A DNA stretch of 64,000 nucleotides from Acidicapsa acidisoli. GTDB lineage: Bacteria; Acidobacteriota; Terriglobia; Terriglobales; Acidobacteriaceae. Location of the stretch: NCBI RefSeq assembly GCF_025685625.1, contig NZ_JAGSYI010000006.1:1-64000 (forward strand). Direction: 5' to 3'. The position numbers and the translations under genes were made by a program. Below the pieces are notes generated by a model. That model did no database searches and was not told the DNA's origin. It was given only the letters and a program-made list of their open reading frames with translations. Positions 35,936 to 54,450 of the stretch are shown here, in pieces; position 1 is the stretch's first letter; every line of letters begins with the position of its first letter.

Positions 35936-35993
35936 GGTATTGGCCGATACTATCGTCCAATTGATCCAAGCTGGCATCTCTGGCTTAATCACG
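35936..35993 (+). promoter_or_regulatory. Composite operator/promoter element, copy 1 (before carbonic anhydrase)
   Basis: Elements in order: 16-bp imperfect palindrome GGTATTGGCCGATACT (35936-35951), ATCG, TCCAAT (35956-35961), 20 bases, then GGCTTAATC (35982-35990). The same parts with identical spacing occur at 44193, 54393 and, on the minus strand, 52528. This copy is 315 bases before the carbonic anhydrase start and is the least symmetric. Confidence 0.65.
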
Positions 35994-36308
35994 CTATCGG
36001 CGCTGCGGCCACGGTGAATCTCCATGAAAGTCGAGCCGGACCCTGTAGCGCCCCATGCAGGAGAAAGAACACGTGCGTGACATTTGTTGACAACGCAGGC
36101 ATCGCTTGCTGCGGAGCCTACAGGTGCGCGGACTGAGACTCCTCACATGCTCCGGTTTCAATGCACAACTCTTGAGTTCATCCTCTCTGGAGCTTTGACA
36201 ACAGACTGCGGAGCCCGTACGAGAGGGTTCGATCCGCATAGACAACATCCAACCACGCGTAGTCGCAAACCGAATCCCGGACTTGCAACGCGATTCAGGA
36301 GAATCCAA

Positions 36309-36836
36309 ATGAGCTTGATCGATCACGCGATTGCGGCCAACCGCAAGAATGCACAGCACCATGATCCTTCGCTGGCAAACAAGCCTGCTCCTAAGATTGC
36401 AATCCTCACGTGTATGGACCCTCGCGTGAACCAACTGCTCGAATGGCTAGACATCAAACCCGCTGACGCGGATGTGATTCGGAACGTCGGAACGGCAGCA
36501 ACGGAAGATGTTGTGCGGTCTCTCATGTTTTCAATTCACGTTCTCGGCGTGCGGGAAATCATGATCGTCGGGCACACTGGCTGCGGAATGGAAATCTTTT
36601 CGGAAGAAGCGTTTGAGAACCACATTCACACACTAACCGGCGTGTACGCAGTATCTCCCGATAAATTCCATTGCTATTCCGACGTGAATCTGGTTACGCA
36701 AAAGCAGGTACTAAAACTCAGGTCGCACCCGTGGATTCCCTCGGACATTGTGATTCGTGGATTTGTTTTTGATTTGTCGACAGGCGAACTGAGAGAAGTA
36801 ACGCCGAAGGACGCAAATAATCTAGTGGCTGTCTGA
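36309..36836 (+). CDS. Beta-class carbonic anhydrase
   Basis: 175 residues from an ATG seven bases after AGGAG. It converts CO2 and water to bicarbonate in the cytoplasm. Zinc ligands are visible: Cys 35 with Asp 37 and Arg 39 in CMDPR, and His 89 and Cys 92 in GHTGCG. It is shorter than plant-type enzymes, matching the small bacterial beta-CA subgroup. Open frame upstream of the ATG lacks coding character. Preceded by a composite promoter element shared with three other units. Confidence 0.88.
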   Translation: MSLIDHAIAANRKNAQHHDPSLANKPAPKIAILTCMDPRVNQLLEWLDIKPADADVIRNVGTAATEDVVRSLMFSIHVLGVREIMIVGHTGCGMEIFSEEAFENHIHTLTGVYAVSPDKFHCYSDVNLVTQKQVLKLRSHPWIPSDIVIRGFVFDLSTGELREVTPKDANNLVAV

Positions 36837-37047
36837 ACATTCGCCACATGCGACGTGACACGCACCGCAGAGATCATCGCGTCTCTGCGGCTGTGTGATC
36901 GCCATATTACCAGGGATCGTCAAGCAAAATAGAGACGCCGCAATACTTTGCGGAGGTGCGTCCTAAGGCATGAAACGGCGGTATCGTCATGCTGCCCTTT
37001 CCGCAACAAAAGAGGTCGGCTGGAGCTCCGTCGAAAGGCAAAGCATC

Positions 37048-38811
37048 GTGCATTCGCTTATCTCTGTGAACGTCGGTCTTCCACGCGACATTGCCTGGCA
37101 AGGCAGGATAGTGCACACCGCTGTCTGGAAACGATCCGTGGCAGGCAGGGTGATGGCGCGGCGACTGAATCTCGATGGCGATGGACAGGGCGATCTAGCG
37201 GGGCACGGTGGAGAGCATCGCGCCGTCATGGTGTATCAGCTCGACTCTTATCGCCACTGGGAGGCGTATCTCCGAAGACACGACTTTGAGTATGGCCAGT
37301 TCGGCGAAAACCTGACAGTCGATGGTCTGCCAGATAACGAGGTTTGTATCGGAGATCGCTACAGGATCGGTGGCGCGCTGTTTGAAGTAACTCAGCCGCG
37401 CGTCACCTGTTATCGCGTCGGCATACGAATGAAGAACCCGGCGATGCCAGCGCTGCTGGTTTCGCATCGGAGACCGGGCTTTTATTTCCGAGTCATCGAA
37501 GAAGGGGAAATTGGTGCGGGAGACGAGATCGTGAAGGTCGTCGACGGACCAGAGCATGTCACTGTCCAGGAAATCGATAGACTGCTTTACCTGCCCGGCC
37601 GCACGCCGGATCAACTGCAACGTGCTCTGCGCATCCCAGCACTCAGCGCGGGTTGGAAGAGCTCGTTCCAATCGCTGGTCGCGGCCGAAGAGAAACACGA
37701 CCGGGGTGGAAATGCGAGCTTTGCTCCGTCTTCCGCGCCACCTGAGATGTGGCGCGGGTTTCGCTCACTGCGAGTTGCGGCGGTACAACGCGAGAGTGGT
37801 GACGTGCTCTCGTTTGTTTTGGAGTCAGAAAACCGCAGCCCATTACCGGCGCCTCTTCCCGGTCAATTTCTCGTTTTCAAACTCGAACTGGAAAAGGATT
37901 CAGATCTAATCCTGCGAAGCTATTCGATGTCCGGTCCGCCGGGGACGGGAACGTATCGCATCAGCGTGAAGCGTGCCGCTGGCGCAGGGAGTCGCTACTT
38001 TCATGACCGGGTTCGGGCTGGCGATCTGCTACAGGTGAGCGCGCCGAGAGGCAGCTTCACACTTGCTCCGGGCAACAGGCCTGTTGCCTTGCTCAGCGCC
38101 GGTATCGGGGTGACCGCGGTTCTCTCAATGCTTCACTCGCTTGCGGATGGCGCCGCAAACTCAACGCGAGAAGTCTGGTGGTGTTACGGTACTCGAAATC
38201 GCACGGAGCACCCATTTGCCGCAGAGGCGCGAGCCCTTCTCCTCGGTCTTCCCCAGAATCATTCCTTCGTCGCATATAGCAAGCCGGAAGTTGGAGATCA
38301 GTCAGGTAAGGATTACGATATCTGCGGACACCTGAATCTCTCATCCTTGCAACAGCTCCGGGTACCGAAGGAAGCGGACTTCTATCTCTGTGGACCGGCT
38401 GCTTTCCTTCGCGACTTTACCGCTGACTTGAAGTCGTGGGGTGTCCCTGTCTCCTGTATCCATTCCGAGGTATTCGGCGCTGAATCGTCGAAAACACCCG
38501 GAATCGCGAGCGCCACGTCCGTTTCTCCGCATCCGCCCGTCGAAAACGTTGGCACCGGACCGAAGGTTTCCTTCACACGCAGCGGTCTCACAGTGCCGTG
38601 GAACTCGCGGTATGAAAGCCTCCTCGAATTCGCGGAAGCCTGCGATGTTCCCGTCAGGTGGGCCTGCCGGACGGGTGTCTGCCACAATTGCGAGTGCGGG
38701 TTGATCGATGGAAGGATCAGCTACGCGCCCGAGCCGCTCGATCGGCCAGCCGAAGGGAACATTTTGATCTGTTGCTCAACTCCGCTGACCGCGGTCGAAC
38801 TCGATCTCTGA
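37048..38811 (+). CDS. MOSC domain / FAD-NAD(P)H reductase / 2Fe-2S ferredoxin fusion (YiiM plus reductase type)
   Basis: The MOSC part covers about residues 1-165 (DGDGQGDLAGHGGEHRAVMVY, FGENLTVDGL). A short helical linker (EIDRLLYLPGRTPDQLQRAL) follows. The flavin domain contains LRSYSMSGPP, the nucleotide domain LLSAGIGVTAVLSML and FYLCGP, and a C-terminal plant-type 2Fe-2S domain has CRTGVCHNC and a later Cys. Such fusions pass electrons from NAD(P)H to a molybdenum-site substrate, often N-hydroxylated compounds or nitro groups. The start is chosen at a GTG after AAAGG; an ATG at 36970 gives 26 extra residues without a good ribosome site. It stands alone. Confidence 0.82.
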   Translation: MHSLISVNVGLPRDIAWQGRIVHTAVWKRSVAGRVMARRLNLDGDGQGDLAGHGGEHRAVMVYQLDSYRHWEAYLRRHDFEYGQFGENLTVDGLPDNEVCIGDRYRIGGALFEVTQPRVTCYRVGIRMKNPAMPALLVSHRRPGFYFRVIEEGEIGAGDEIVKVVDGPEHVTVQEIDRLLYLPGRTPDQLQRALRIPALSAGWKSSFQSLVAAEEKHDRGGNASFAPSSAPPEMWRGFRSLRVAAVQRESGDVLSFVLESENRSPLPAPLPGQFLVFKLELEKDSDLILRSYSMSGPPGTGTYRISVKRAAGAGSRYFHDRVRAGDLLQVSAPRGSFTLAPGNRPVALLSAGIGVTAVLSMLHSLADGAANSTREVWWCYGTRNRTEHPFAAEARALLLGLPQNHSFVAYSKPEVGDQSGKDYDICGHLNLSSLQQLRVPKEADFYLCGPAAFLRDFTADLKSWGVPVSCIHSEVFGAESSKTPGIASATSVSPHPPVENVGTGPKVSFTRSGLTVPWNSRYESLLEFAEACDVPVRWACRTGVCHNCECGLIDGRISYAPEPLDRPAEGNILICCSTPLTAVELDL

Positions 38812-39157
38812 TCGTCAGACTCTTCAAGGGTGCGACGTCATAATTCTTTACGTCGTTCGCGGCTGCGGCAACCTCGCGACGCGTGTTTGCTCCGAAATCG
38901 ACAGGACAAAGAGTTTTTTAGTCGACGAAGGTTGTCGCCGTTATAGAATTGCTTGTACCTTACGCAGCATATGCAAGCCTTTTCGCGTAGGTCACCATGG
39001 TCCCCGGTCCCCGCGATTCCCGACTATCGATCTCTGCTTTGTTCTTTTGCGATGAAGAGTGAAATCGCTGATAAGTCAGGCACTTTTGCTCGGGAAATTC
39101 ACCCGCGCTGGTAGTTCTTGCCGTTCGCGAAGCGACTCCCAACGGGAGGACTTGCAA
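38812..39157. other. Intergenic DNA before the MEDS gene
   Basis: A 346-base gap. Just after the fusion gene is a weak hairpin, CGACGT and ACGTCG around 38833-38854, possibly a terminator without a clear T-run. No gene seen. Confidence 0.35.
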
Positions 39158-39751
39158 ATGAAGCGCCCTCTGCAGCCAATTTCTCTCGCTGGCTCTCTAC
39201 TCGGTGAAGTGCGCCACGTCTGCGCATTTTTCGCGAACGACGATGAAGAATATCGCGTATTACTTCCCTTCATCCGGGAGGGTCTGTCCTGCGGAGACAA
39301 AGCCATACAAGTCATCAATCCCGAGGCGCGCCAAAAGCATCTGCAGCGTCTAGCTGAGGTGGGCATCGACTCGACCGCTCATCAGCAAAGCGGACAGCTT
39401 CAGATCCGAAACAATACCGAAGTCTATCTACGAGATGGACAATTCGATCAAGACCGGATGCTTGCAGCATTCGAAGAGATGGCGGCTTCTGCCAGGAGTG
39501 CAGAAGGATTCCGACTGAGTCGCATCGTGTGCCGGATGGATTGGGCGTCGGGAGATCAATCTCATATCGAGGATGTGATCGAGTTTGAATCGCGTGTGAA
39601 CGATGTTTGGCGCCGATATGACGACGCAGTTATCTGCACTTACCATCTCGCTAAGCTCAGCGGAGATGCCGTAATTGACATCATGCGGACGCACCCGATG
39701 GTCATTATTGGGGGGGCATCTCCAACAAAACCCCTTTTTCACGCGTCCTGA
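39158..39751 (+). CDS. MEDS (DcmR-type sensory) domain protein, C-terminus frameshifted at a G7 tract
   Basis: The ATG follows GGGAGGA by seven bases. The text is a MEDS domain (HVCAFFANDDEEYRVLLPFI, GDKAIQVINPE, CRMDWASGD, VICTYHLAKLSGD, MRTHPMVIIGG). These soluble proteins are usually linked to histidine kinases or sense small molecules. After MVIIGG the frame runs through seven Gs (39710-39716) and ends with an unrelated ASPTKPLFHAS. Removing one G restores HLQQNPFFTRPEEFLGEFK, the family's normal tail, up to a TAG at 39804-39806, only 12 bases before the next ATG. Either a sequencing error, a real mutation or slippage at the tract. Confidence 0.8.
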   Translation: MKRPLQPISLAGSLLGEVRHVCAFFANDDEEYRVLLPFIREGLSCGDKAIQVINPEARQKHLQRLAEVGIDSTAHQQSGQLQIRNNTEVYLRDGQFDQDRMLAAFEEMAASARSAEGFRLSRIVCRMDWASGDQSHIEDVIEFESRVNDVWRRYDDAVICTYHLAKLSGDAVIDIMRTHPMVIIGGASPTKPLFHAS

Positions 39752-39818: not shown

Positions 39819-42800
39819 ATGCACCAGCAACCAACAGATCCTGCGACTGAAGTAAAACGGCTGCAGCGCTGCATGAGCGATCTGGTCAGCGTCCTTGCAC
39901 TTCCAGCTGTCTGGAGTGGCAGCGAGCCAAGTCGAATCCTGGATACCTTTCTCGATGCCCTTCTTGTGATGCTGGACCTTGATTTCCTCTATGCGCGAGT
40001 ACGGCTTGACTCGCACGGAACCTCAACCGACGCGCTTAAGACTGCTCAGCTCTCCGGAACGAGCTATAGCGGGGAGGAGATTGGTCAGGCTCTCAAGCAC
40101 TGGTTTGGAGAAGATCCGCAGCGATGGCCGGAAGAAGTACTTAGGAATCTGGGAGAGCAGGAGGTTTCGGCCTTTCCCATCAGAATGGGCATAGAAGGCG
40201 AGCTCGGACTCATCGTGGCGGGATCTCAGAGGCTCGGCTTTCCGGAACAAACCGAGAGGCTGGTGCTTGGAGTAGCTGCGAATCAGGTAGCTATCGGGTT
40301 GCAGCATGCACTTCTGCTGAATGAGCAGAAACAGGTTGCAAGTGAACTCGATAAACGAGTCGCGGAACGAACAAGGAAGCTTGCCGAAACCAACGAAGAG
40401 CTGCAACTCCAAGTTGGACTACTGCAGCATATTCCTGTAGCCGCCTGGACGCTCAAGCCCGATGGGACACCGGACTTCCTGAATCAAGTCTGGCTTGAAT
40501 ACACCGGTCAGACCCTCGCTTTTGTCCGATCGCATCCCGAGGCCTGGATGAGTGCGGTCCACCCTGACGATCTGGAAAAAACATCGACGAGCTTTTGGGA
40601 CGGAGTTCGCTCGGGCCAGGGTTTCGCAATGGAAACCCGTTTTCTCCGCGCAGAGGACGGGACCTATCGCTGGCATCTCAATCGAGCCGTGGTCTTGTGC
40701 GATGCAGAAGGAAAAGTCCTCAAATTTGTCGGTACGTCCACCGACATCGATGATCGGAAACGTGCCGAAGAGGAGCTGCGAGCGAGTGAAAGCAATTTCC
40801 GTCACATTCTTGACAACATTCCTGGATATGTCTGTGCTGTGAATTCCACTGGCGAGATCGAGTTTGTCAATCGGCAATTCCTTGAGGACTACGACAAGAC
40901 GCTCGAAGAAGTGAAAGGTTGGGCAACCAACGACTTCGTTCATCCAGATGACTTCCCTCGCGTGATAGCCGCGTATACGAACTCGATCACAAGCGGACCT
41001 CCTTTCGTCGATGAGTACCGATATCGCCGGGCCGATGGCGTTTATCGATGGTTCCACGTTCGCTCTCTTCCCGTGCGAGACAAAGATCGTCGGATAACCG
41101 GGTGGTACATTCTCTCAACCGATATTGAAGATCGGAAGCGGGTGGAGGACGAACTCAGGCGAAGCGAAGCTAGATACCGGGTTGTGGTTGAAACAGCCAG
41201 CGACGCGGTAATCAGTATCGACGAAAGCGGCGCGATCATTCTTGCGAATCCCGCAACAAAGCGGATATTTGGATACAACCTGGAAGAGCTTATCGGCAAA
41301 CCTCTCACGCTTCTCATGCCGGAAGCAATGCGTAACCTCCATGAGACAGGTTTCAAACGATATCTGGAAACCGGCGCGAGACATCTGAACTGGCAGGGAA
41401 CCGAGGTGACTGCGCTGCGGGCTAACGGTGAGGAATTTCCTGTAGAAGTTTCATTCGGAGAGATGGCCGCGGATCAGCGAAAGGTATTCACCGGATTCAT
41501 TCGAGATATCTCCGAAAAGAAGCGCTCTGAAGAAGCGATCCTTGCAAGTGAGCGAAACCTGAGCCTGATCATCAATACGATGCCCGTTCTTGCATGGTCC
41601 GCTCTTCCAGACGGCACTGTCGAATTCTTCAACCAGCGGTGGCTGGACTACACGGGTTTATTACTTGAGCAGGCACAGGGGCGAGGATGGACTGACGCAA
41701 TTCACCCTGACGATCTCGGCCAGATGTCAGAGTACTGGCAATCCATCATTCTCTCGCGAGGACCGGGCGAAATTGAAGCACGTCTTCGACGCTTTGACGG
41801 AAATTATCGATGGTTTCTGTTCCGCGCAGACCCAATGCGCGATGACTCAGGTGCAATCCTCAAATGGTATGGCACAAATACCGATATCGACGATCGGAGG
41901 CGAGCAGAAGAGGCGCTACGCATACGGGAGTTAAACCTGCTCCAGATAACAGAAACCATACCCGAGATGCTTTGGAGTGCTTCGCCCGATGGAGCGATTG
42001 ACTACTGCAATGGCCGCTTGCATGATTACACCGGCTTTAGCCCCGAACAAGTTAGGAGCGGTGGCTGGATGAACCTTCTGCATCCCGATGATGTCGAACC
42101 GACAGCGGAAGTCTGGAAATCATGTGTGAAAAGCGGCACTCCCTATAGCGTCGAAGTTCGTACGTTTCACGCTGCCGACCACACATACCGTTGGTGTATG
42201 ACGAGAGCGCTGCCATTACTTGACCAAGAAGGGCGCATAGTAAGGTGGCACGGCACAGTTGTGGACATGCACGATTGGAAGCAGGCACAAGAAGAATTAC
42301 GCAATACTCAGGCGGAACTTGCAAGAATGATGCGCGTTATGACGATCGGACAACTGACCGCTTCGATCGCACATGAGGTTAGTCAGCCCCTGTCTGGGAT
42401 TATCACGAACGCGAACACCTGCTTGCGAATGTTGAATAGCGAACCTCCAAATGTCGACGGTGCGCGCGAGACTGCGCAACGCACAATACGCGATGGTAAT
42501 CGCGCTACGGATGTGATCACCCGTTTACGCACACTCATCAGCAAGAAGCAAATCAACATCGAACAGGTAAACCTGAATGAGGCGGTTCGGGAAGTAATCG
42601 CGCTGTCATTGAGCGAATTGCAGAAAAACCGCGTGATCGTGCAAAACCAGTTCAACGACAATTTGCCGCCGGTCAAGGGTGATCGGGTTCAGCTTCAGCA
42701 GGTCCTTCTGAATCTCCTCCGCAACGCTTCTGACGCTATGGTCACGATCACCGATCGGCCGAGGCAGCTATTCATACGGACAGATGCAGATGGTGGTCAC

Positions 42801-43019
42801 GCTACTGTTTTTGTTCAGGATTCTGGAGTTGGTTTCGATCCCGAGACTACTGACCGGCTTTTCGAGTCGTTTTTTACCACGAAACAAGAGGGGATGGGCA
42901 TCGGACTCTCGCTGAGTCGCTCCATCGTCGAGGCCCATCGCGGCCATCTATGGGCCACCAGAAACGATGGCCCAGGTGCGACCTTTGCTTTTTCTATTCC
43001 TTGTGATTCCGGGCTTTAG
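39819..43019 (+). CDS. Multi-PAS sensor histidine kinase (FixL-like, cytoplasmic)
   Basis: 1066 residues without membrane helices: a GAF-like N-terminal domain (about 20-175), then a coiled coil (ASELDKRVAERTRKLAE). Five PAS domains in series follow (about 200-830), several of the DGTPDFLNQ...YTGQ type with PAC motifs such as GTSTDIDDRKRAEE. HisKA comes next (SIAHEVSQPLSGI, His phosphoacceptor), and a HATPase with NLLRNASDAM, DSGVGFDPE and GMGIGLSLSRSI. It follows the MEDS gene and precedes a receiver gene. It is a good partner for the receiver at 43284 and the FixJ-type regulator at 52785. Confidence 0.9.
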   Translation: MHQQPTDPATEVKRLQRCMSDLVSVLALPAVWSGSEPSRILDTFLDALLVMLDLDFLYARVRLDSHGTSTDALKTAQLSGTSYSGEEIGQALKHWFGEDPQRWPEEVLRNLGEQEVSAFPIRMGIEGELGLIVAGSQRLGFPEQTERLVLGVAANQVAIGLQHALLLNEQKQVASELDKRVAERTRKLAETNEELQLQVGLLQHIPVAAWTLKPDGTPDFLNQVWLEYTGQTLAFVRSHPEAWMSAVHPDDLEKTSTSFWDGVRSGQGFAMETRFLRAEDGTYRWHLNRAVVLCDAEGKVLKFVGTSTDIDDRKRAEEELRASESNFRHILDNIPGYVCAVNSTGEIEFVNRQFLEDYDKTLEEVKGWATNDFVHPDDFPRVIAAYTNSITSGPPFVDEYRYRRADGVYRWFHVRSLPVRDKDRRITGWYILSTDIEDRKRVEDELRRSEARYRVVVETASDAVISIDESGAIILANPATKRIFGYNLEELIGKPLTLLMPEAMRNLHETGFKRYLETGARHLNWQGTEVTALRANGEEFPVEVSFGEMAADQRKVFTGFIRDISEKKRSEEAILASERNLSLIINTMPVLAWSALPDGTVEFFNQRWLDYTGLLLEQAQGRGWTDAIHPDDLGQMSEYWQSIILSRGPGEIEARLRRFDGNYRWFLFRADPMRDDSGAILKWYGTNTDIDDRRRAEEALRIRELNLLQITETIPEMLWSASPDGAIDYCNGRLHDYTGFSPEQVRSGGWMNLLHPDDVEPTAEVWKSCVKSGTPYSVEVRTFHAADHTYRWCMTRALPLLDQEGRIVRWHGTVVDMHDWKQAQEELRNTQAELARMMRVMTIGQLTASIAHEVSQPLSGIITNANTCLRMLNSEPPNVDGARETAQRTIRDGNRATDVITRLRTLISKKQINIEQVNLNEAVREVIALSLSELQKNRVIVQNQFNDNLPPVKGDRVQLQQVLLNLLRNASDAMVTITDRPRQLFIRTDADGGHATVFVQDSGVGFDPETTDRLFESFFTTKQEGMGIGLSLSRSIVEAHRGHLWATRNDGPGATFAFSIPCDSGL

Positions 43020-43283: not shown

Positions 43284-43658
43284 ATGACGGATACACGTTT
43301 GTTGGTATCGGTAGTTGATGATGATGAATCGGTGCGCGAATCTTTACCTGATCTGCTGAAAGAATTGGGGTTTACGGCCCGTGCTTTTTCCTCGGCAGAA
43401 GAGTTTCTTGAATCCGACATAGTTCTACGGACCAGATGCTTGATCCTCGACATTGCAATGCCAGGCATGAGCGGCCCGGAACTTCAACGCGAGTTAAAGC
43501 TTCGCCGGATACAGACGCCAATCATCTTCATCACCGCTCATCAGGATGAGGCAGTGCGGAGAGAGACTATCGATCAAGGAGCGGTGGAATGTTTGCTTAA
43601 GCCTTTCACTGATACGGCTGTGCTCAATGCGTTGAATGCAGCGCTTCGAACCAATTGA
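43284..43658 (+). CDS. Single-domain response regulator (receiver only, FixJ-type)
   Basis: 124 residues with the acidic pair (VDDDESVRES), phosphoacceptor Asp 56 (CLILDIAMPGMSG), Thr in FITAHQD and Lys in LLKPF. It has no DNA-binding domain. Closest in text to FixJ receivers. It lies 264 bases after the PAS kinase in the same direction, so it may act as a phosphate relay or sink for it. The gap 43020-43283 shows nothing else. Confidence 0.85.
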   Translation: MTDTRLLVSVVDDDESVRESLPDLLKELGFTARAFSSAEEFLESDIVLRTRCLILDIAMPGMSGPELQRELKLRRIQTPIIFITAHQDEAVRRETIDQGAVECLLKPFTDTAVLNALNAALRTN

Positions 43659-43726
43659 GGTCTGACTGGCGATTCGACTCGTTATGCGGAAGTGCAACGA
43701 TTTCCGCGAGTGGATATGGCTCTCAA

Positions 43727-44057
43727 ATGATCCCGCGCCTCGTTTCGCGCACACCGCCCATCGTGTTCGTTGTCGATAACGATATCTCCGTTCTAGAATC
43801 GCTTCAAATATTGATTCGCCTCGAAGGCCTGGAGGTCGAGACGTTCAGATCGGCACGGGGATTCCTTGCGCATCCTCTTACATCCGCACCAAGTTGTATG
43901 GTCCTGGAGGTTTCTCTTCCTGGCTTGAATGGCCTCGTAGCAGTGGCAATCACTACAAGAGGAATCTCGGGCTTCCCTCAATCCTGTGGAGGAGGAAGTT
44001 GTCAGCAATGGTGTTGCTCGCAGGAGGTGTGTCCGTCTCCTCAAGCCTGACTTTTAA
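43727..44057 (+). pseudogene. Decayed FixJ-type response regulator
   Basis: The frame begins as a receiver very like the one at 52785-53429 (IVFVVDNDISVLESLQILIRLEGLE, PSCMVLEVSLPGLNGL). The phosphoacceptor Asp is now Glu (LEVSLP). After NGL the text loses similarity; another frame then gives NPVEEEVVSNGVARRRCVRLLKP and ends at 44055-44057. The effector domain is missing. Probably an inactive duplicate. Confidence 0.6.
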
Positions 44058-44192
44058 GCCAAATCTGTCGGCCCTTTCAAAAAGTGCCTGCTAAGAAATA
44101 CTTGTCCTTCGGATGCTCTCGCATATGCCGTCATGCGAGCTTATTGAGTCTTAGGAACTCATGTAAACCGGTTCTTGCCGACCCCATACCAA

Positions 44193-44250
44193 GGTATTGA
44201 TCGATACCAACGTCCAATAGATAGCTCTCCCCTTTTCTGGCTTAATCGCA
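44193..44250 (+). promoter_or_regulatory. Composite operator/promoter element, copy 2 (before the efflux operon)
   Basis: Palindrome GGTATTGATCGATACC (44193-44208, one mismatch), AACG, TCCAAT (44213-44218), 20 bases, GGCTTAATCGCA (44239-44250). It lies in the 354-base gap between the decayed receiver gene and the OMF gene, which holds no other feature I can support. The palindrome centre is about 43 bases before the CTTAAT centre, fitting an activator site just upstream of the polymerase. Confidence 0.7.
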
Positions 44251-46186: not shown

Positions 46187-46198
46187 GAGGAAACTACA

Positions 46199-47416
46199 TT
46201 GCGAATTTCAGAAACGCTTAGACGCAAAGGATCGATCATCAGTGTCTGTATTGTTGTCGGCGCACTTATCTCGGCCGGACTGGTGCTTCGGGCCGTGGTG
46301 TTGTTCCCGCGTACTGATGACGCTGAAGTGACAGCCAACTTCATTGGTATAGCGCCTGTCGTTGAAGGTCCCGTCGTGCAACTACCTATTCATGACAACG
46401 ACCTTGTCAAAAAGGGTGACCTGCTGTACAAGATTGATGATCGACCCTATCTGTACGCATTGCAAAATGCACTCGCTGCTCAAGCGGAGCTCGAAGGCGA
46501 AATTGAGAATGAATCCCGTAGGATATCCTCTCAGGTCAACGGCGTTGATGTGGCGAACGCAGGCGAGCAAAGCGCCTTGGCGAATGAGAGCAAGGCCACC
46601 GATGAAATCGAGGTCGCGGAAGCGGCGATTGCGCGATCGGAAGCTGCAGTCAAGCAAGCGCAGGCTGATGAAAGTTATGCTATAGGCAATTTTCATCGTA
46701 TCGAGCCGCTCCTCGCGAAAGGCTTCGTGACTGAGGATGATGTCCATAAAGCTCGATCTCTGGCCGATGCGAGGACGGCAGCAGTGGAACAGGCAAAGTC
46801 TCAATTGCAGCTGGCGAAAGCGAGCCTGCTTTCAGCTTCTGCCCAAAAGCAGCAAGCCACGGCGCAGATTACACAGAGCCGAGCTCAAGTCAAAGAATCG
46901 ACACATTCGGTTCTGGTTTTAGCGCCTTTGCTTGCGCAGCGCGACAGCAGGGCTGCAGCGGTTCGATTGGCTCGATACAACTATGAGCAGTGCAACGTGG
47001 TGGCGCCATTCGATGCCCGCGTAACCAATCTCACCACATCCGAGGGGCAATACGTGAAGGTGGGCAAGCAATTGTTCATCCTTATCGACAATCGGACTTG
47101 GTGGGTACTCGCAAATTTCAGAGAAACCCAAATTTCACATACTCGGCCAGGAACGCCGGTTGACGTGTTCCTCGTATCCGATTCAACCACGAAATATCAT
47201 GGCGTTGTCGAGAGCGCGAGCTTTGGTGTCACACCCGATCCTGATGTAGTGGGAAAACTTTCGGAGGGATTACCCGAAGTACAGCGTACGCTGAATTGGG
47301 TGCGTCTGGCGTCACGATACCCGGTACGCGTTAGGATTATTGACCCACCCCCGGCCACACTTCGTGTAGGTCAGGTTGCAGTTGTCGTGATGCGACCTCT
47401 CCACCGAGATCACTGA
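46199..47416 (+). CDS. HlyD/EmrA-type periplasmic adaptor
   Basis: 405 residues from a TTG eight bases after TAGGAGG. One N-terminal membrane helix (IISVCIVVGALISAGLVLRAVVLF), then TDDAEVTANFIGIAPVVEGPVV (lipoyl half) and a long coiled coil (about 80-270). The barrel half follows (VVAPFDARVTNLTTSEGQYVKVGKQLF, WWVLANFRETQI). Links the FUSC pump to the TolC-like channel. Nine bases separate it from the pump gene. Confidence 0.88.
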   Translation: MRISETLRRKGSIISVCIVVGALISAGLVLRAVVLFPRTDDAEVTANFIGIAPVVEGPVVQLPIHDNDLVKKGDLLYKIDDRPYLYALQNALAAQAELEGEIENESRRISSQVNGVDVANAGEQSALANESKATDEIEVAEAAIARSEAAVKQAQADESYAIGNFHRIEPLLAKGFVTEDDVHKARSLADARTAAVEQAKSQLQLAKASLLSASAQKQQATAQITQSRAQVKESTHSVLVLAPLLAQRDSRAAAVRLARYNYEQCNVVAPFDARVTNLTTSEGQYVKVGKQLFILIDNRTWWVLANFRETQISHTRPGTPVDVFLVSDSTTKYHGVVESASFGVTPDPDVVGKLSEGLPEVQRTLNWVRLASRYPVRVRIIDPPPATLRVGQVAVVVMRPLHRDH

Positions 47417-47424
47417 GGCCAGCT

Positions 47425-49593
47425 ATGACCACGTATGGCAGGTCCAAGTCATCGCTTCGGAATCTTATCGAGATTTTGCGAACCGAACTTGCGTGGTACC
47501 CTGCCCGGCCCGCCTTAGTGGGAAGAATCGTACTCGCCTGTACGAGCGTAATGTTGCTCGCAGTAATCTTTCGAATTCCCGGCGCGGTATTGGGCGCCAG
47601 CTTCCCGATATTGATTTCGCGGGAAAATCCAAAGGCTACCCGAAAAAGTGCATTTCAGATTGGCCTTGCTTGTTCCATCGGAACCGCTGAAGTGATTGTT
47701 GGTGGAATGTTGACGGCAGGCTCACCATTTCTTCATGTGATATGGGTGATGGTGAGCCTCTTCGCAGTATTCTACGCAATCAGCTGCTTGAACTTTTCGA
47801 ATCCGTCTCTCACTGTTAGCGCAGTGCTCTCGCTTGGGATACGGACTTGGGATTATCCAATCTCTGCTGAAGAACGCGTGGAACGTACGCTTTACACGCT
47901 GCTCGCGATTCTATTAGCGTGTGTAATTTCCATCATAATTGAAACCATATTTGCGAAGAAGAACCCGCCGGACGCCGTGCTCGAGGGAATCTCTCGCCGC
48001 TTGAATCTCATACAAACGCTCTTGAGTGAAACATCCGAGGCAGAGTTTGCCTCCTCAACGTTGACGATTCAGCTCACTCGTTCTGCCACAAGAGGCGTAG
48101 ATGATTTGCGGGAACTCCTCACGCGTTCCAGGTATGACGAAGGCTTTCATGATTTGCTCGCAACGGTGATAGCTCTCACAAGACAGCTCACGGAGCTGGG
48201 CTCGAATCTTGTCGAATCAGCTCCAATCTTATCTATCGAGGACCAGGAACGTTGCAGAGCCATTGCGCGAAATCTAGGTTTGGTTCGTTCCAGCCTCACG
48301 CGCCTGGAGTGTCCGGCATGGATCGATCTTCCTTTCGCAAGTCAGCCGTCAAATCCGATATTGACAGAAATTGAGCGCACAATAACTTTAATAGCTCAGA
48401 GCTTTTGCGGTGAGAGTTTTCGTATCCATTGGCTCTTGCCAACATCGGCTTCGACACCGTCGATCAGTGAGTTTGTCGTTAACGCCCTTCGAGATCCGGA
48501 GCATATGAAGTTTGCCGTGCGTGGCACGCTCTCAGCTTTTCTCTGCTATCTGTTCTATATGAGCACAGGCTGGATGGGTCTTGCTGCGTCATCGATTTTA
48601 ACGTGTACCCTTACTTCTCGTCGATTGATAGGCGCGGGCCGGCATAGACAGAGTCTCCGATTTGCGGGCTTCCTCTTGGGGGCAGGCGTTATCGGATGGG
48701 GAACCGAGGTGTTCATTCTCCCTCAGCTAAACACGATCGCGGAGTACGCTGTGTTATTCGCGTCGGTCGTCTGGATTGGCTCCTGGGTAGCGACATCCGG
48801 TCCGCGGATAGCATTCTTGGGGCTTCAGATCGTCCTATCCTACAACCTGGTGAACCTCAACAGGTTCACGATCAATACTTCCCTTGTGCCCTCTCGCGAC
48901 ACGGTTCTGGGTGTCGTACTTGGGATTGTTGCAATGTGGCTAGTGTTTGACCATCTCTGGGCTCAGACGTCCAGTGCATCTGTCCGCAGCCTATTCCTCG
49001 GAACGTTGCGTAACGTAGCGAACTTCAAAGCGGTCTCGGCTGGATCTTCTAGAGAGACAAATCAGCTGTTGACTGCGGAGAGTTCGAAAATCAACCGGGA
49101 TTTCGATAAGCTGCGAGATCTTGCTGATTTTTACGCCTTTGAATCTTTCCCGAAGAAGCCGCACGAAAGCCTGGTAAACCGGAGCATTCAAACGCTCCTG
49201 CCGGAATTGCGCGCGTTCCTGCTCGTGAAGACGGGACTTCTGCAGCAAAGAAGCCTGGCGGTAGGCGAGGTGGAAGAGGGGCTGATTCAGGAGGTGGAAG
49301 AGAGAGCATCCAGTGTGCTTCATCGATTGGCGAATGCAATCGAAGGAGAATCACCTGAACAGCTCTCGCTGTGGAGTATGAGTGCCGAGGAGCTTCGCGC
49401 GAAGGTATCAATAGAAGAGGCAAGATCAAGAGACGGAAACAACCTGTCGAAGTACACCGAAATGCGGTTATGTGCTTCCCTCTTGGATATGGCTTCTGAT
49501 CTTGAGCGGCAAGCTAGATTGAACTTTATGCCAGAAACTGGCGTTGTAAAAGCAATTGACAATTGGTCTGTTGGGACAATCGCCGAGACCTAG
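47425..49593 (+). CDS. FUSC-family (AaeB-like) inner-membrane transporter
   Basis: 722 residues with two sets of about six membrane helices (about 30-185 and 380-510) and cytoplasmic helical parts between and after them. This is the layout of FUSC / aromatic-acid exporter proteins. The first set starts GRIVLACTSVMLLAVIFRIPGAVLGASFP. The set OMF-YtcA-HlyD-FUSC resembles the E. coli aaeXAB locus, which exports hydroxylated aromatic acids; substrate here is inferred. Confidence 0.82.
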   Translation: MTTYGRSKSSLRNLIEILRTELAWYPARPALVGRIVLACTSVMLLAVIFRIPGAVLGASFPILISRENPKATRKSAFQIGLACSIGTAEVIVGGMLTAGSPFLHVIWVMVSLFAVFYAISCLNFSNPSLTVSAVLSLGIRTWDYPISAEERVERTLYTLLAILLACVISIIIETIFAKKNPPDAVLEGISRRLNLIQTLLSETSEAEFASSTLTIQLTRSATRGVDDLRELLTRSRYDEGFHDLLATVIALTRQLTELGSNLVESAPILSIEDQERCRAIARNLGLVRSSLTRLECPAWIDLPFASQPSNPILTEIERTITLIAQSFCGESFRIHWLLPTSASTPSISEFVVNALRDPEHMKFAVRGTLSAFLCYLFYMSTGWMGLAASSILTCTLTSRRLIGAGRHRQSLRFAGFLLGAGVIGWGTEVFILPQLNTIAEYAVLFASVVWIGSWVATSGPRIAFLGLQIVLSYNLVNLNRFTINTSLVPSRDTVLGVVLGIVAMWLVFDHLWAQTSSASVRSLFLGTLRNVANFKAVSAGSSRETNQLLTAESSKINRDFDKLRDLADFYAFESFPKKPHESLVNRSIQTLLPELRAFLLVKTGLLQQRSLAVGEVEEGLIQEVEERASSVLHRLANAIEGESPEQLSLWSMSAEELRAKVSIEEARSRDGNNLSKYTEMRLCASLLDMASDLERQARLNFMPETGVVKAIDNWSVGTIAET

Positions 49594-49884: not shown

Positions 49885-51033
49885 TCATGGAGTTCGATGG
49901 CCAGAGCGGCGTTCGCGGTTCCAATGAAGAATTGGACCGGCAACATCTTTAATCTCGGATACTAATGTCTGAAGCAACACGTTCGCATCGCGCTCTCGAG
50001 AGAGGCTTGCGCTCTGTCCGGCCCAGAGCGGAAGCAACTCAGGTCTCGCTGCCTTCTCGGCAGGGATGGAGAGATTCTTCACCAGGAAGCGCTGCAATGG
50101 ATATGGAAGAATCTCCACTCCTGGGCCATTGAGTTCGTCGAGCAAGTGGTTGCGAATTCCGCGAGCAAGCCGTCCAGTAAAGCCCTTGGTCAACGCGGTG
50201 TTTTGAGCCTTTCCGCTGAGCAGCGCATTGCGATGATGCAGGCTTGCACCGGAATCTTCACTCGCTAGAAAGGCGGTGCCGATCTGTACACCCTCGGCTC
50301 CGAGGGCCAAAGCCGCCAGGATTCCTCGAGCATCAGCGATGCCTCCGGCGGCAACTACCGGAAGCGAAACAGCATCTACAACTTGAGGCGTCAGCGAAAA
50401 GGTTCCAGTGAGTGACTCCTCGGCGGAGAGCAGAAAAGATCCGCGATGGCCGCCCGCTTCAAAGCCGGAAGCGACAATGACATTGACCCCGGCCTGTTCA
50501 AGAGCAATGGCTTCGGATGGTGTGGTGGCTGTTCCGATCGTAACGATGCCTTGAGCGCGGCATTCGTCGAGGATCTCTTTTGGTGGAATTCCGACGATGA
50601 AGCTGAAGATGGGCACCTTCGCGTCGAGCAAAACGCGCGCCTGGTCTTCAAACCTTTTGGGAACGTAAGGCTTGTACTCCGGGAGTGGGACGCCCAAGGC
50701 CTCGATATGCTTGGCCAAGTGGGCAAGACTTCGCTGAAATTCTGCTCTGCCGGAAGTGCCTGCGCCCTCATCTTCCATCGAGACCCACAGATTGATGGCG
50801 AAAGGTTTGGCAGTCAGTTCACGAATCTCAGCGATGACATCTCTGATTGCTGACGGAGTCAAGCCATGCGCCCCAAACGAACCCAGACCACCGAAGTTCG
50901 AGACTGTTGCGGTTAATCGCTGCGTCGACAGCCCACCCAGTGGACCTTGAATGATGGGGTACTCAATTCCCAGGCTCGATGTAACACGGGTCTTATTCCA
51001 CGGTGCAGGCGAGTTAGTAGACCGCTCCTTCAT
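49885..51033 (-). CDS. Nitronate monooxygenase (2-nitropropane dioxygenase family)
   Basis: 382 residues; AAAGGA precedes the ATG. FMN-dependent TIM barrel: YPIIQGPLGGLSTQ near the start, then ASGFEAGGHRGSFLLS with the catalytic His, VVAAGGIADARGI and GAEGVQIGTAFLASEDS for phosphate binding. It oxidises alkyl nitronates to carbonyls and nitrite; homologues also act on other substrates. Last gene of the SDR-RidA-NMO minus-strand operon, 53 bases after the RidA gene. Confidence 0.87.
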   Translation of the reverse strand: MKERSTNSPAPWNKTRVTSSLGIEYPIIQGPLGGLSTQRLTATVSNFGGLGSFGAHGLTPSAIRDVIAEIRELTAKPFAINLWVSMEDEGAGTSGRAEFQRSLAHLAKHIEALGVPLPEYKPYVPKRFEDQARVLLDAKVPIFSFIVGIPPKEILDECRAQGIVTIGTATTPSEAIALEQAGVNVIVASGFEAGGHRGSFLLSAEESLTGTFSLTPQVVDAVSLPVVAAGGIADARGILAALALGAEGVQIGTAFLASEDSGASLHHRNALLSGKAQNTALTKGFTGRLARGIRNHLLDELNGPGVEILPYPLQRFLVKNLSIPAEKAARPELLPLWAGQSASLSRERDANVLLQTLVSEIKDVAGPILHWNRERRSGHRTP

Positions 51034-51086
51034 GGCTATCCTTTGGATGCAAAAGGGAGAAACTGTTTGGTCTCTACCCGAACTTC

Positions 51087-51575
51087 TTACTCGCCAACCT
51101 CGAAGATGACTTCAAGCTCAATCGGCATCCCGAGAGGAAGGCTGGCAACGCCGATAACGAGCCTAACAGATGTCTTCTCGATTCCGAAGACATCCCGAAA
51201 CAGGTCCGATACTGCATCCGCAACCCTGGGTTGATCGAAAAAGTCACCGGAGGTTGCCATAAACACTCCGAGCCGGACAACGCGACTCACACGATCGAGA
51301 GATCCCAAGTACTGCTTGGCCGCGGCGAGAGCGCTCAATGCCGCGGTATAAGCGGCATCCCGTCCTGCGTCGACATCGAGTTCTTTTCCAAGCCGGCCCA
51401 GATATTTCGGCTTGTGATCGACAACTGGGAGCATGCCGGTCAGGAAGAGAAGATTGCCCGTCTGCAGCGCCTCAACGTATGTGCCGAACGGCGTCGGGGC
51501 CGCTGGGAGTTGAATGCCAAGTTCCTGCAGCCGCCGCTCTGCACTGACAGACAGCGAGCTGTTACCGTCTACCAC
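51087..51575 (-). CDS. RidA/YjgF-family protein
   Basis: 162 residues from a GTG start overlapping the SDR gene end by seven bases. The text (FGTYVEALQTGNLLFLTGMLPV, RDAAYTAALSALAAAKQYLGSLDRV, SVRLVIGVASLPLGMPIELEVIFEV) is a RidA trimer fold. About 30 residues are added at the N-terminus compared with classic RidA. RidA proteins hydrolyse reactive imines or enamines. Its company with an SDR and a nitronate monooxygenase suggests detoxification of a nitrogen compound. Confidence 0.83.
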   Translation of the reverse strand: MVDGNSSLSVSAERRLQELGIQLPAAPTPFGTYVEALQTGNLLFLTGMLPVVDHKPKYLGRLGKELDVDAGRDAAYTAALSALAAAKQYLGSLDRVSRVVRLGVFMATSGDFFDQPRVADAVSDLFRDVFGIEKTSVRLVIGVASLPLGMPIELEVIFEVGE

Positions 51576-52294
51576 CGGCCCACGTGCGCACCGCCGTCCA
51601 CGTGCAGCACCTCCCCTGTGACGTAACGAGCTTCCGTCAGGTAAACGACAGCGTCGGCAATGTCCTTCGCCTCAGCGATCACGCCCATCGGCGACAGTGT
51701 CTTGAGAAAGTCCTTCGGATCGGTTACGTGCATCGGTGTATCTACGATGCCGGGCGCGACGGCGTTGAAGCGAATGTGATCCTTCGCGTATTCGCTCGCC
51801 AGGTTGAGTGTCACGGCCTCAAGGCCGCCTTTGGTGATCATTGGCACGGATGCCGTGACGCCAGCAATGGGATTAACCACGAGCGACGTTGTGATAGTTA
51901 CAACGCTGCCGCCTGACTTCTGCGAGAGCATCTGCTTTACCGCGCCCTGCGTGACATAAAGGAAGCCTTCGAGGTTGACGGAAGAAAGGGCTTTGAAATC
52001 CTCGGCGGTGTACTCTGGGAACGCTTTTGTGAAGAAAATGCCTGCGTTATTCACGAGCCCATCGATCGACCCAAACTTGGTGATGGCCGTTTCGACGATC
52101 TTCGCGGCTACCGCACTCTCGCCGATATTGCCGTCGACGAGGGCGAGTTGGTCCGACGCATTGAATGCTTCCGACTTGCTGATGTTGCGTGAATTCGCGA
52201 CCACGTTGTAACCGCGATCCAGAAATGTCTGAGTTACGGCTGCACCGATGCCTTGTGAGGCTCCTGTAACAATGACCGTCTGTTTGGTTGCCAT
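51569..52294 (-). CDS. Short-chain dehydrogenase/reductase
   Basis: 241 residues from the ATG with AGGAGAT upstream; the frame is open for 52 more codons but without a start site of comparable quality. Rossmann motif TGASQGIG, NNAG in LVNNAGIF, catalytic Ser in VTITTSLVV and C-terminal PGIVDTPM. The usual Tyr-x-x-x-Lys position reads VPMITKGGLEA: the Lys is kept but Tyr is replaced by Met, so normal SDR catalysis is doubtful. First gene of the SDR-RidA-NMO operon behind composite element copy 4. Confidence 0.8.
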   Translation of the reverse strand: MATKQTVIVTGASQGIGAAVTQTFLDRGYNVVANSRNISKSEAFNASDQLALVDGNIGESAVAAKIVETAITKFGSIDGLVNNAGIFFTKAFPEYTAEDFKALSSVNLEGFLYVTQGAVKQMLSQKSGGSVVTITTSLVVNPIAGVTASVPMITKGGLEAVTLNLASEYAKDHIRFNAVAPGIVDTPMHVTDPKDFLKTLSPMGVIAEAKDIADAVVYLTEARYVTGEVLHVDGGAHVGRW

Positions 52295-52470
52295 GCCTAT
52301 CTCCTGTTGTTGTGCAACGGGGTTACTATGCCCCTTAACGGTTACTGATTTCCGGGGAATATTGTGAGGAGGCCACAGTGAAACCGCATCCATGGAGATC
52401 ATCTGATCCAGACTTGCCTTCAAACCGAATCGCAGGATCGCGTGCGCCATCCATTCGGGCTGCTCGATGT

Positions 52471-52528
52471 TCTGATTAAGCCACGGCAGAAGAAATGATC
52501 CTATTGGACGAAGGTATCGATCGATACC
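52471..52528 (-). promoter_or_regulatory. Composite operator/promoter element, copy 4 (before the SDR operon)
   Basis: Read on the minus strand: perfect 16-bp palindrome GGTATCGATCGATACC (52528 to 52513), TTCG, TCCAAT (52508-52503), 20 bases, GGCTTAATC (52482-52474). The SDR gene start is about 180 bases downstream. The element lies in a 490-base gap (52295-52784). Confidence 0.7.
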
Positions 52529-52784
52529 TTCGTATTAGATGATGCAAAGCATTGGCTCACTTGAACCACCACGGTGCGCCGCTTGGAATAACTCAATCCG
52601 GCGAACTCTCCCATCTATCTTTCGAAGTCACAGATCCGAGCGCATGCGGATTCATTTGATGGGGCGCTCGCATACGCCAATTGCTCAAACGCCCATCGTA
52701 GATTGGTAGGAGTGCTGTTTGAGAGGCGAACGAATAAGCTGACCTACGGCATTCCGACTGAACGCTGGTGGTAGTTCAGGAACA
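52529..52784. other. Intergenic DNA between the SDR operon promoter and the FixJ-type gene
   Basis: No gene supported. A plus-strand stretch near 52700-52775 reads LVGVLFERRTNKLTYGIP before a stop, which looks weakly like a coding remnant, but I cannot name it. Confidence 0.3.
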
Positions 52785-53429
52785 TTAGGCCATAGGCGCA
52801 GCGACTTCGGAAGCGCGCGTAAGGCGGAGCTTCCCGGCCATCTTAACCAGGTCGGCGATGGAATCGGCATTCATCTTTTCCATGACCCTGCCTCGGTGCG
52901 CCTTCACTGTAATCTCGCTGATGCCTAGTTCGCTGCCCACCACCTTATTCGGTTTGCCGGAGGCTACCAATGCCATTACCTGGCGTTCGCGACCCGTGAG
53001 CGATGCGAAGCGATGTTTGAGCGACTGAATCTCCATCTCGCGGCCGAGCGCGATGCGGCTACGTTCGAGCGCCTGTCGAATGGCGGCCAATAGCACATCG
53101 TCGCTGAATGGCTTTGTCAGGAACTCTTGCGCGCCGGCCTTCATGGCGCGGACCGTCATCGGGACATCGCCGTGGCCAGTAATGAAAATGATAGGCATCT
53201 CAGTCCGTTCGGTGGCCACTTGCTTTTGCAGATCAAGTCCGTTGAGGCCCGGAAGGGAAACGTCAAGTATCAGGCAGCTCGGCGTCTGGACGCGTGGACG
53301 CGCGAGGAATTCCGATGCCGCTGCGTAGGTCTCGGGCTGCCAACCTTCGCAGCGAATGAGCATTTCCAGAGATTCACGTACTGAAACGTCATCATCGACA
53401 ACAAATACGATTGGAGTGGCTTGCGACAT
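52785..53429 (-). CDS. FixJ-type response regulator (receiver plus LuxR HTH)
   Basis: 214 residues: receiver with VDDDVS, phosphoacceptor Asp 56 (CLILDVSLPGLNGL), Thr in FITGHGD and Lys in LTKPF. A LuxR/FixJ helix-turn-helix follows (about 138-200; LTGRERQVMALVASGKPNKVVG, ISEITVKAHRGRVMEKM). It is the only intact response regulator with a LuxR-type DNA-binding domain in the window. It lies next to element copy 4, making it the leading candidate to bind the composite elements. Confidence 0.9.
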   Translation of the reverse strand: MSQATPIVFVVDDDVSVRESLEMLIRCEGWQPETYAAASEFLARPRVQTPSCLILDVSLPGLNGLDLQKQVATERTEMPIIFITGHGDVPMTVRAMKAGAQEFLTKPFSDDVLLAAIRQALERSRIALGREMEIQSLKHRFASLTGRERQVMALVASGKPNKVVGSELGISEITVKAHRGRVMEKMNADSIADLVKMAGKLRLTRASEVAAPMA

Positions 53430-53627
53430 AAGTGATTACCTCATCTCAGGATCACGTTGCTCGCTAGATAGAAGTATATTCTTCGGAATTCGGAAAATCA
53501 CTGATTTCTTCATTCCGCTGAACGTGTAGCGTCGTAATAAATGGAAATGAAGAAATTTGGCCGTCGAGCGGTATGTGGCCGGATCGCACAGAAATCGAAT
53601 CCGGATCAGGCCAGTGAGGTGATGCGG

Positions 53628-54247
53628 TGGATCAAATGAGGAATTCGCGGCCCCTTATTTGTCTTCGGAGACGCCAGTGCGCAGATAACTCTCACCTCGC
53701 CGAATGGCTGGCAGCACTCGATCGATCCAAAGAGCGATCTGCTGGAGAATCAAACAGACGCGATGTCGCGTTCTAAGAAGGACCAGAAGGCACAAGCGGC
53801 TCTATCTGAGACTGTCAAACTCGCGGATGTGAAATCGGAAGATTTCGACACTATCTTCTACGTGGGCGGTCATGGTCCTATGTGGGATCTTGCCGATAAT
53901 CCGGATTCAATTGCGCTGATCGAGTCCTTCTACAAGTCAGGCAAGCCCGTTGCAGCACTCTGCCATGCGCCGGCTGTGTTCCATGTTACATACAACGGGG
54001 AGGCCATTGTGAGGGGCAAACGCGTCACCGGCCTTGCTGACAGCGAAGAGGAAGCCGTACCGCTGCCCATGTTGTTCCGTTCCTCGTCGAGGACGAACTC
54101 AAGCGTGTTGGTGGCCTCTATGAGAAGGCACCCGATTGGCAGAGCTTTGCGATTACTGATGGTCGCCTGATTACCGGACAGAATCCACCATCTTCGACCG
54201 CCGCAGCGCGGGCGCTTCTGAAGCTATTCGCAGAAGTGGCTACCTAA
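53628..54247 (+). pseudogene. DJ-1/PfpI-family protein, frameshifted
   Basis: Pieces in different frames together make a DJ-1/PfpI glyoxalase-III-type protein: EEFAAPY (53638), GDASAQITLTSPNGWQ and SIDPKSDLLENQTDAM. A long intact part has FYVGGHGPMWDLADNPDSIA and AALCHAPAVF with the catalytic Cys. After DSEEEAV another frame gives VPFLVEDELKRVGGLYEK and ITDGRLITGQNPPSS to the stop at 54245. At least two frameshifts (about 53655 and 54073), and no start is visible. Such proteins normally have about 230 residues. Confidence 0.75.
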
Positions 54248-54392
54248 TTCTCAACAGCACAAACGAGCATGTCTGCTCGGCGATGCCCATCTGGCCGACC
54301 ATGCGAAGCGCCTAACGATGGCCGGCGAGTTCCACAGTACCGGCTGAATTCAAGCTCCTCGACAGAAGGCCCATCGCGTTCCGTGATACCTA

Positions 54393-54450
54393 GGTATCGG
54401 TCGATACTTTCGTCCAATGGATTACCCTCCGATCTTCTGTCTTAATCGCA
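54393..54450 (+). promoter_or_regulatory. Composite operator/promoter element, copy 3 (before the truncated epoxide hydrolase)
   Basis: GGTATCGGTCGATACT (54393-54408), TTCG, TCCAAT (54413-54418), 20 bases plus G/T, CTTAATCGCA (54441-54450). The next start, a GTG at 54512, is 62 bases on, the shortest distance of the four copies, so the CTTAAT box may be the -10 region. Confidence 0.7.

Follow-up and report, generated by a model that had tools for sequence, protein, structure and literature searches.

Four copies of one composite sequence stand before unrelated genes in a 64,000-nt stretch of Acidicapsa acidisoli (assembly GCF_025685625.1, contig NZ_JAGSYI010000006.1, positions 1-64,000 of the forward strand; hereafter the window), which raises the question of what this element is and which protein reads it. 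In our interpretation, to which we give a probability of about 0.77, the element is the operator and core promoter of a two-component regulon run by the FixJ/StyR-type response regulator encoded at 52785-53429, which would act on two adjacent boxes. The motif, its spacing rules, its co-occurrence with the regulator clade and its promoter-like position were all computed.

The pattern GGTATNGNNCGATACYNNCGTCCAAT-N22-CTTAATC occurs in the window at 35936, 44193 and 54393 on the plus strand and at 52528 on the minus strand, each time with 0 mismatches, and none of 100 dinucleotide-shuffled windows contained any copy of it. These four copies had been reported in a preliminary description, which also claimed a fixed spacing from TCCAAT to CTTAATC; the spacing is indeed identical in all four, but it amounts to 22 bases and not 20. 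That description was also too short in extent, as it omitted the conserved bases that relatives show within the 22-base spacer, six copies outside the window and a conserved ATAC half-site that belongs to the element and sits three bases 5' of its central palindrome (GGTATCG-NN-CGATACC). The full element reads TGATACC-NN-GGTATCG-NN-CGATACC-WT-CGTCCAA, with a heptamer every 9 bp. The four sites and the candidate regulator are placed as follows.

35927..35989, + strand: site A, distal half-sites 35927-35933 and 35936-35942, proximal half-sites 35945-35951 and 35954-35960; 5' of the carbonic anhydrase and MOSC/ferredoxin-reductase genes
+ strand: core promoter of site A, -35-like hexamer 35961-35966, 17-nt spacer, -10-like CTTAAT 35984-35989
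44184..44246, + strand: site B, half-site starts 44184, 44193, 44202 and 44211, -35-like hexamer 44218-44223, -10-like hexamer 44241-44246; 5' of the OMF-YtcA-HlyD-FUSC efflux operon
52475..52537, - strand: site C, leftward half-site starts 52537, 52528, 52519 and 52510, -35-like hexamer 52503-52498, -10-like hexamer 52480-52475; 5' of SDR-RidA-NMO
54384..54446, + strand: site D, half-site starts 54384, 54393, 54402 and 54411, -35-like hexamer 54418-54423, -10-like hexamer 54441-54446; 5' of an epoxide hydrolase remnant and an ECF sigma factor gene
52785..53429, - strand: FixJ/StyR-type response regulator, proposed activator, with REC and GerE/LuxR helix-turn-helix (HTH) domains (PF00072, PF00196)

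A genome-wide scan had been proposed as a check. When the 7.11-Mb genome was searched for the palindrome plus CGTCCAAT, without CTTAATC and with at most 3 mismatches, 10 copies were found against 0 for the reversed-pattern control. The earlier suggestion of a selected composite promoter element is supported. Besides the four in the window, three copies lie further along this contig, just past the window (64997, 66518 and 66573), and contigs C1, C2 and C3 carry one copy apiece; 7 of the 10 are clustered in 31 kb. CTTAAT was present at the expected distance in 7 copies and absent from those at 64997, at 66573 and on C3.

The element is more likely to be parsed correctly, judging from its variation among relatives, as two 7-2-7 boxes lying 17 or 18 bp apart, followed by a weak -35 and a -10-like hexamer. 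Exact matches were sought in 398 genomes of the family with any gap from 0 to 14 allowed between GGTATYG and ATACC, and 52 places were found in 36 genomes, against 0 for the reversed control in all genomes. The gap at the box junction was 4 nt in 28 of the 52 places and 3 nt in 24, with no other length. Alternatively, the same regulator could bind the central palindrome as one dimer near -52.5, with the flanking ATAC and CGTCCAAT being accessory. No other part of the element is as symmetric in the window and the genome, and the palindrome had been taken as the binding unit; nevertheless, we consider this unlikely and have set the palindrome aside in that role, because the length of its centre varies between two values in relatives (it lacks one base in 24 of the 52 variable-gap places and in 13 of the 27 distinct sites obtained from these loci), which is fitted better by two neighbouring boxes. 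Moreover, the distal half-site ATRC was kept at the same distance in 21 of the 27 distinct sites, although the scan did not ask for it, and several weak sites near regulator genes (L122, L134 and L135) are better preserved in the proximal box and core promoter than in the distal half. The AC-N4-GT gap was constant in 44/44 distal and 66/66 proximal matches of the collected loci, which is weaker evidence since most fetch patterns fixed one or both gaps. The middle of the palindrome is therefore flexible by one base, and the outer boxes keep AC-N4-GT wherever this could be checked. StyR and TodT are response regulators of styrene and toluene catabolism. Their AC-N4-GT operator core, as given in the excerpt of PMC5874301, fits the two outer boxes and not the palindrome centre.

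The two-box parse continues into the putative core promoter. In 84,980 species genomes, a pattern that covered the boxes and left out the -10 region was found at 29 loci, almost all of which belong to Acidobacteriaceae, other Terriglobales or unplaced Acidobacteriota; they include Granulicella sp. L60, Edaphobacter lichenicola X5P2 and metagenome-assembled genomes labelled Blastocatellia and Betaproteobacteria. In the place of CTTAAT, which was not part of the search pattern, the fifth base of the hexamer was A in 28 and the sixth T in 27 of the 29 loci, and the bases G, A, T and T, starting one base after CCAAT, were found in 27, 25, 23 and 22 of them, respectively. The -35-like TAGATT starts at the last T of CCAAT and lies exactly 17 nt from the -10-like hexamer, which is preceded by TGG as in an extended -10. 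This 17-nt spacing, between TAGATT or TTGTTT and the CTTAAT-like hexamers, agrees with the about 17 bp of housekeeping sigma-70 promoters. The placing of CTTAAT in a -10-like position, suggested earlier, is supported. Among the 64 collected-locus matches, AAT and the -10-like hexamer are 22 nt apart in 55, 23 in 4, 17 in 4 and 12 in 1. Both hexamers fit the sigma-70 consensus poorly; the rest of the -10-like hexamer resembles a sigma-70 -10 in spite of a scarce second-position A. Taking CTTAAT as the -10, at positions -12 to -7, would by arithmetic place the box centres near -61.5 and -43.5.

The spacing of the boxes is coupled to the -35 sequence. The collected sites comprised 137 distinct sequences, which were reduced to 109 after collapsing near-identical ones and to 108 after one match with a 2-nt gap was set aside. 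TG followed CCAAT in 41 of the 48 sites with a three-base gap (17-bp spacing) versus 10 of the 60 with a four-base gap (18-bp spacing; Fisher 3e-13, for sites that are not independent), and thus the 17-bp class goes with TTG-type and the 18-bp class with TAG-type -35 sequences. A search of this genome for 17-bp-type sites, with up to 3 mismatches allowed, found none. The combination of proximal box and GATT was found here at 14 places versus 3 for the reversed control; 10 of them belonged to known sites, and the remaining 4 had no CTTAAT-like hexamer at the right distance.

The position of the sites relative to genes is also promoter-like. Frequent occurrence inside genes had been named as an observation that would speak against the element, and 0 of 44 distinct sites overlapped a called gene by more than 15 bases. 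Genes were called by a crude in-house script which misses short genes, and no following gene was called for 4 of the 44 sites; 36 of the other 40 point towards the following gene, 29 of them from within 340 bp. The idea that the element is a spreading mobile repeat and not a functional promoter could draw on the clustering of 7 of the 10 genome copies within 31 kb, but it is highly improbable given this orientation, the differing spacers, the unrelated genes that follow and the failure of the reversed variable-gap pattern to match in any of the 398 genomes.

The protein encoded at 52785-53429 is very probably the regulator of the element, as its distribution among genomes suggests and as had been proposed for this FixJ-type gene. 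Among 150 related genomes, sites with at most 3 mismatches were found in 9, all of which belong to the 12 genomes with a regulator match of at least 258 bits, and in 0 of the other 138. The hypergeometric probability is 2.7e-12, with the 258-bit line set after the fact at the weakest such match in a site-bearing genome; at the original search cut-off of 1e-50, by which 33 of the 150 genomes have the regulator, it is 4.6e-7 (neither the Fisher nor the hypergeometric values allow for the dependence between genomes or between sites). The regulator search scored 20 candidates per genome in this set and 7 in the set of 398. In the latter, a match of at least 258 bits was present in 30 of the 36 genomes with an exact variable-gap site versus 23 of the 362 without, and at a cut-off of 1e-60 the counts were 33/36 versus 63/362. 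Conversely, the exact site was found in 30 of the 53 genomes with a match of at least 258 bits and in 6 of the other 345. From the 23 regulator genomes lacking the exact site, 4 had a site with at most 3 mismatches and 11 more had a 17-bp-type site, which left 8. The 17-bp-type sites were found in 12 of 24 genomes with the regulator versus 1 of 16 chosen as being without it. Furthermore, among the 29 loci found from the DNA pattern alone, 14 hold a regulator homologue (at least 56% identity) or a part of one, those in L063, L065 and L066 being parts or separate pieces and a 29%-identical receiver in L086 not being counted. The element follows the same regulator through related genomes, and several operons of this genome share one operator (10 copies), which is inherited together with the regulator (9/12 versus 0/138 genomes).

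The regulator has a receiver domain (PF00072, 93.6 bits at residues 8-118) and an HTH domain (PF00196, 73.6 bits at 143-198). It scored 214.2 bits against NCBIfam NF006900 (FixJ proper), below the cut-off of 255. Its best solved relative is 1yio (E 1.6e-57, residues 4-200), the entry title of which says only response regulatory protein and which we take to be StyR. Its ILDVSLPG aligns with VLDMRMPG of 1yio, which carries the candidate phosphoacceptor aspartate; we assume that the aligned receiver aspartate is the phosphoacceptor. The letters of 1yio at 175, 176 and 179 are K, V and H, fitting the StyR residues named in the excerpt of PMC5874301. At these positions the window regulator has K, A and G, with only the lysine kept, and the change from V and H to A and G, at positions of StyR said to face DNA, fits the changed half-site.

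In a tree of 45 regulators, limited to matches of at least 190 residues, labelled by hand from the up-to-3-mismatch search of the 150 relatives and the scan of the species genomes, and built before the variable-gap and 17-bp-type searches, all 20 regulators labelled with sites fell into one clade of 26 members with support of 100/100. The recognition helix reads K-A-H in 24 members of the clade, K-T-H in one and K-M-H in one, mostly within the signature TVKAH; the other 19 regulators have V, I or L in place of A in 18 cases and M in 1. Six members of the clade were labelled as being without a site, and genome G047, labelled likewise and with rows both in and out of the clade, later gave a 17-bp-type site. 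A second regulator of this genome (G000:C1:157686-158297) is 62% identical, falls into the same clade and has the helix K-A-H-C; the 17 kb around it contained no site scoring above 14.

It could also be that another island-borne regulator, or the ECF sigma factor encoded at 54966-55697, recognizes the element and that the FixJ-type gene is a mere neighbour. The regulator and the sites are linked in islands, the ECF gene follows the sites in several loci and the -10-like hexamer lacks the usual A, all of which would fit. However, ECF matches of at least 48% identity were found in only 5 collected loci outside this genome, as compared with the regulator or a part of it in 14 of 29, and this genome also has sites at a great distance from the island (C1, C2 and C3), and the sites follow the regulator clade across genera. 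This explanation is therefore improbable in our opinion.

Several observations weigh against the regulator and its two boxes as proposed here. No site was found in 8 of the 53 regulator genomes (G043, G164, G191, G212, G292, G296, G409 and G419), 7 of which were not covered by the mismatch-tolerant 18-bp search. Conversely, no regulator match in 6 of the 36 site genomes reaches 258 bits: in G312 the copy beside the site is interrupted, G329 and G393 have matches of only 225-235 bits, and G072, G340 and G451 have none at 1e-60. Similarly, G001, of the same genus, has a 17-bp-type site with 2 mismatches (L223, G001:C13:411619) and no regulator match at 1e-50. The rarity of the pattern in genomes without the regulator, which was to be checked, thus holds for the 138 relatives at up to 3 mismatches and has exceptions in the wider sets. 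As the regulator and sites travel together in gene islands, some of the co-occurrence is linkage. In this genome 3 of the 10 copies lack CTTAAT at the -10-like position, and the right half, CGTCCAAT-N22-CTTAATC, at up to 2 mismatches was found at 15 places versus 11 for the reversed control and so is not distinctive alone. The last half-site, CGTCCAA, resembles the others poorly, and the proximal box is for that reason only half symmetric. Lastly, A is missing from the second position of the -10 in 103 of the 108 sites (present in 5), which is unusual for housekeeping sigma-70; the only explanation we can offer is that this may be a sign of strong activator dependence.

The likely partners of the regulator are encoded in the window upstream of site B, with a partial regulator copy directly after them and the intact regulator 9 kb away.

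39059..39751, + strand: MEDS-domain protein, proposed sensor partner (PF14417, 2.1e-43; 148.4 bits versus a cut-off of 29.8)
39819..43019, + strand: PAS-repeat histidine kinase, proposed cognate kinase (PF08447 in 5 stretches, PF00512, PF02518)
43284..43658, + strand: single-domain CheY-like receiver (PF00072), with copies 59-76% identical in site-bearing loci of relatives
43655..44050, + strand: second, partial regulator copy that covers just the beginning of the receiver (60% identity over 65 residues) and gave no HTH match

The regulator is accompanied in many site-bearing loci by a MEDS protein, a CheY-like protein and a PAS-repeat kinase, and MEDS homologues are present in site-bearing loci of relatives; the MEDS protein of the window had no match to a DNA-binding domain. 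The kinase, MEDS and CheY-like proteins (39059-43658) probably serve the regulator 52785-53429, and the kinase would phosphorylate it. The phosphorylated regulator would then bind as two dimers on adjacent 7-2-7 boxes, the distal TGATACC-NN-GGTATCG and the proximal CGATACC-WT-CGTCCAA, 17 or 18 bp from centre to centre. The proximal dimer would abut the weak -35 (TAGATT or TTGTTT), recruit RNA polymerase and in this way compensate for the poor -35 and -10. In this scheme we infer the binding, the phosphorylation by the PAS kinase, activation rather than repression, the start sites and the signal.

The genes that follow the four sites in the window are listed below.

36309..36836, + strand: carbonic anhydrase-family protein, first gene after site A (PF00484, partial match)
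36970..38811, + strand: MOSC (YiiM-like)/flavin reductase/2Fe-2S fusion, second gene after site A (Pfam/NCBIfam)
44412..49593, + strand: efflux operon after site B, OMF 44412-45890, YtcA 45887-46186, HlyD 46199-47416, FUSC-like 47425-49593
49885..52450, - strand: operon after site C, SDR 51569-52450, RidA 51087-51575, nitronate monooxygenase (NMO) 49885-51033
54966..55697, + strand: ECF sigma factor gene, 3' of site D after the epoxide hydrolase remnant (TIGR02937, 93 bits, cut-off 42.9; Pfam)

The gene assignments of the preliminary description hold by Pfam and NCBIfam, with the exceptions that the carbonic anhydrase match is partial and that the FUSC and epoxide hydrolase calls are below the cut-offs: the FUSC-like protein had no Pfam match and only a similarity to MdtO (129.8 bits, cut-off 821), and the remnant after site D covers 30 residues of EHN (20.0 bits, cut-off 22.8). 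Some of these arrangements recur in relatives. In L068 an 87% identical carbonic anhydrase lies 3' of a site and is followed by an 82% identical copy of the MOSC fusion, with an ECF gene before both, and the SDR-RidA-NMO order recurs after a site in L071. In L068, L075 and L085 the next gene 3' of a site is an ECF homologue, a weak site in L126 is followed in the same way, and in L071 such a gene stands after NMO; the regulator may therefore control a sigma factor. The copies outside the window are followed by an outer-membrane efflux gene with apparent HlyD and transporter genes after it, a zinc-type alcohol dehydrogenase, a cytochrome c/P460 protein, a protein without Pfam match and a malic enzyme, with the copy at 66573 facing a gene of the opposite strand. 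Taken over all sites, the genes that follow also include epoxide hydrolases, OsmC, a glyoxalase-fold protein, cytochrome P460 and efflux genes. Cytochrome P460 family proteins recur at or near sites (L090:5619-6149, L129:7110-7718, L134:3230-3850, L127:334-999 and L013:8275-9393). A 449-residue protein of the window without Pfam match (58249-59598) is 72% identical to L122:10877-12217, just after a weak site.

Among characterized systems, the StyR/TodT operator is ATAAAC-N4-GTTTAT, and its AC-N4-GT core appears to be common to both outer boxes here and not to the palindrome centre (excerpt of PMC5874301). The essential StyR site STY2 is at about -40, close to the -43.5 proposed for the proximal box (excerpt of PMC2442086). 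In contrast, the half-sites here are xGATAC and not ATAAAC, and Lys175, Val176 and His179, said in the excerpt of PMC5874301 to face DNA, read K, A and G. STY1 is protected at -110 to -90, well 5' of STY2, whereas the boxes here are packed 17-18 bp apart; in addition, MEDS and CheY-like proteins join the kinase here, and the targets extend beyond one catabolic operon. DevR/DosR, of the NarL subfamily, has similarly closely packed boxes, with the start-proximal one at -35, and binds its primary and secondary sites cooperatively (excerpt of PMC3029386). The operator sequence and regulator subfamily of DevR/DosR are presumably different from those here. Regulators with MEDS domains (DcmR, EtnR2 and the Methylohalobius epoxyethane cluster) are tied to genes for simple hydrocarbon derivatives and epoxides in the excerpts of PMC11507031 and PMC8784404. 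The likeness is a MEDS sensor protein associated with the regulation of such genes; the difference is that the MEDS protein here adjoins a PAS kinase, a CheY-like protein and a FixJ-type regulator. In the open-licence literature no published name or paper was found for the motif or the system, only related systems. As judged by sequence comparison, the system is of the general kind of FixJ/StyR-type two-component regulons, with an operator and DNA-facing residues other than those of StyR/TodT and a score below the curated FixJ cut-off.

Based on the genes that follow the sites, the regulator appears to control detoxification, efflux and sigma-factor genes, and the regulon, with its oxidoreductases, epoxide hydrolases, carbonic anhydrase, OsmC, P460, efflux and ECF genes, resembles a response to small, reactive organic molecules. 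The links of MEDS proteins in the literature to hydrocarbon derivatives and epoxides lead to a reactive organic molecule as the signal, which is a guess. More tentatively, and with odds that we consider to be below even, this could be an undescribed two-component stress regulon of Acidobacteriota, in which the MEDS protein and PAS kinase would sense a reactive small organic molecule, such as an epoxide or a similar electrophile, and the FixJ-type regulator would activate an ECF sigma factor and genes for detoxification from tandem-box promoters of rigid layout, the box spacing being coupled to the -35 and the regulator substituting for the missing A of the -10. To our knowledge, transcription control in Acidobacteriota has been little studied. 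The present system supplies a regulator and an operator that can be tested as a pair, with precise rules for the operator, and the two box spacings, the coupled -35 and the -10 without its usual A would allow a clean test of an activator standing in for promoter elements. With the pattern, the regulon can also be read out in related genomes.

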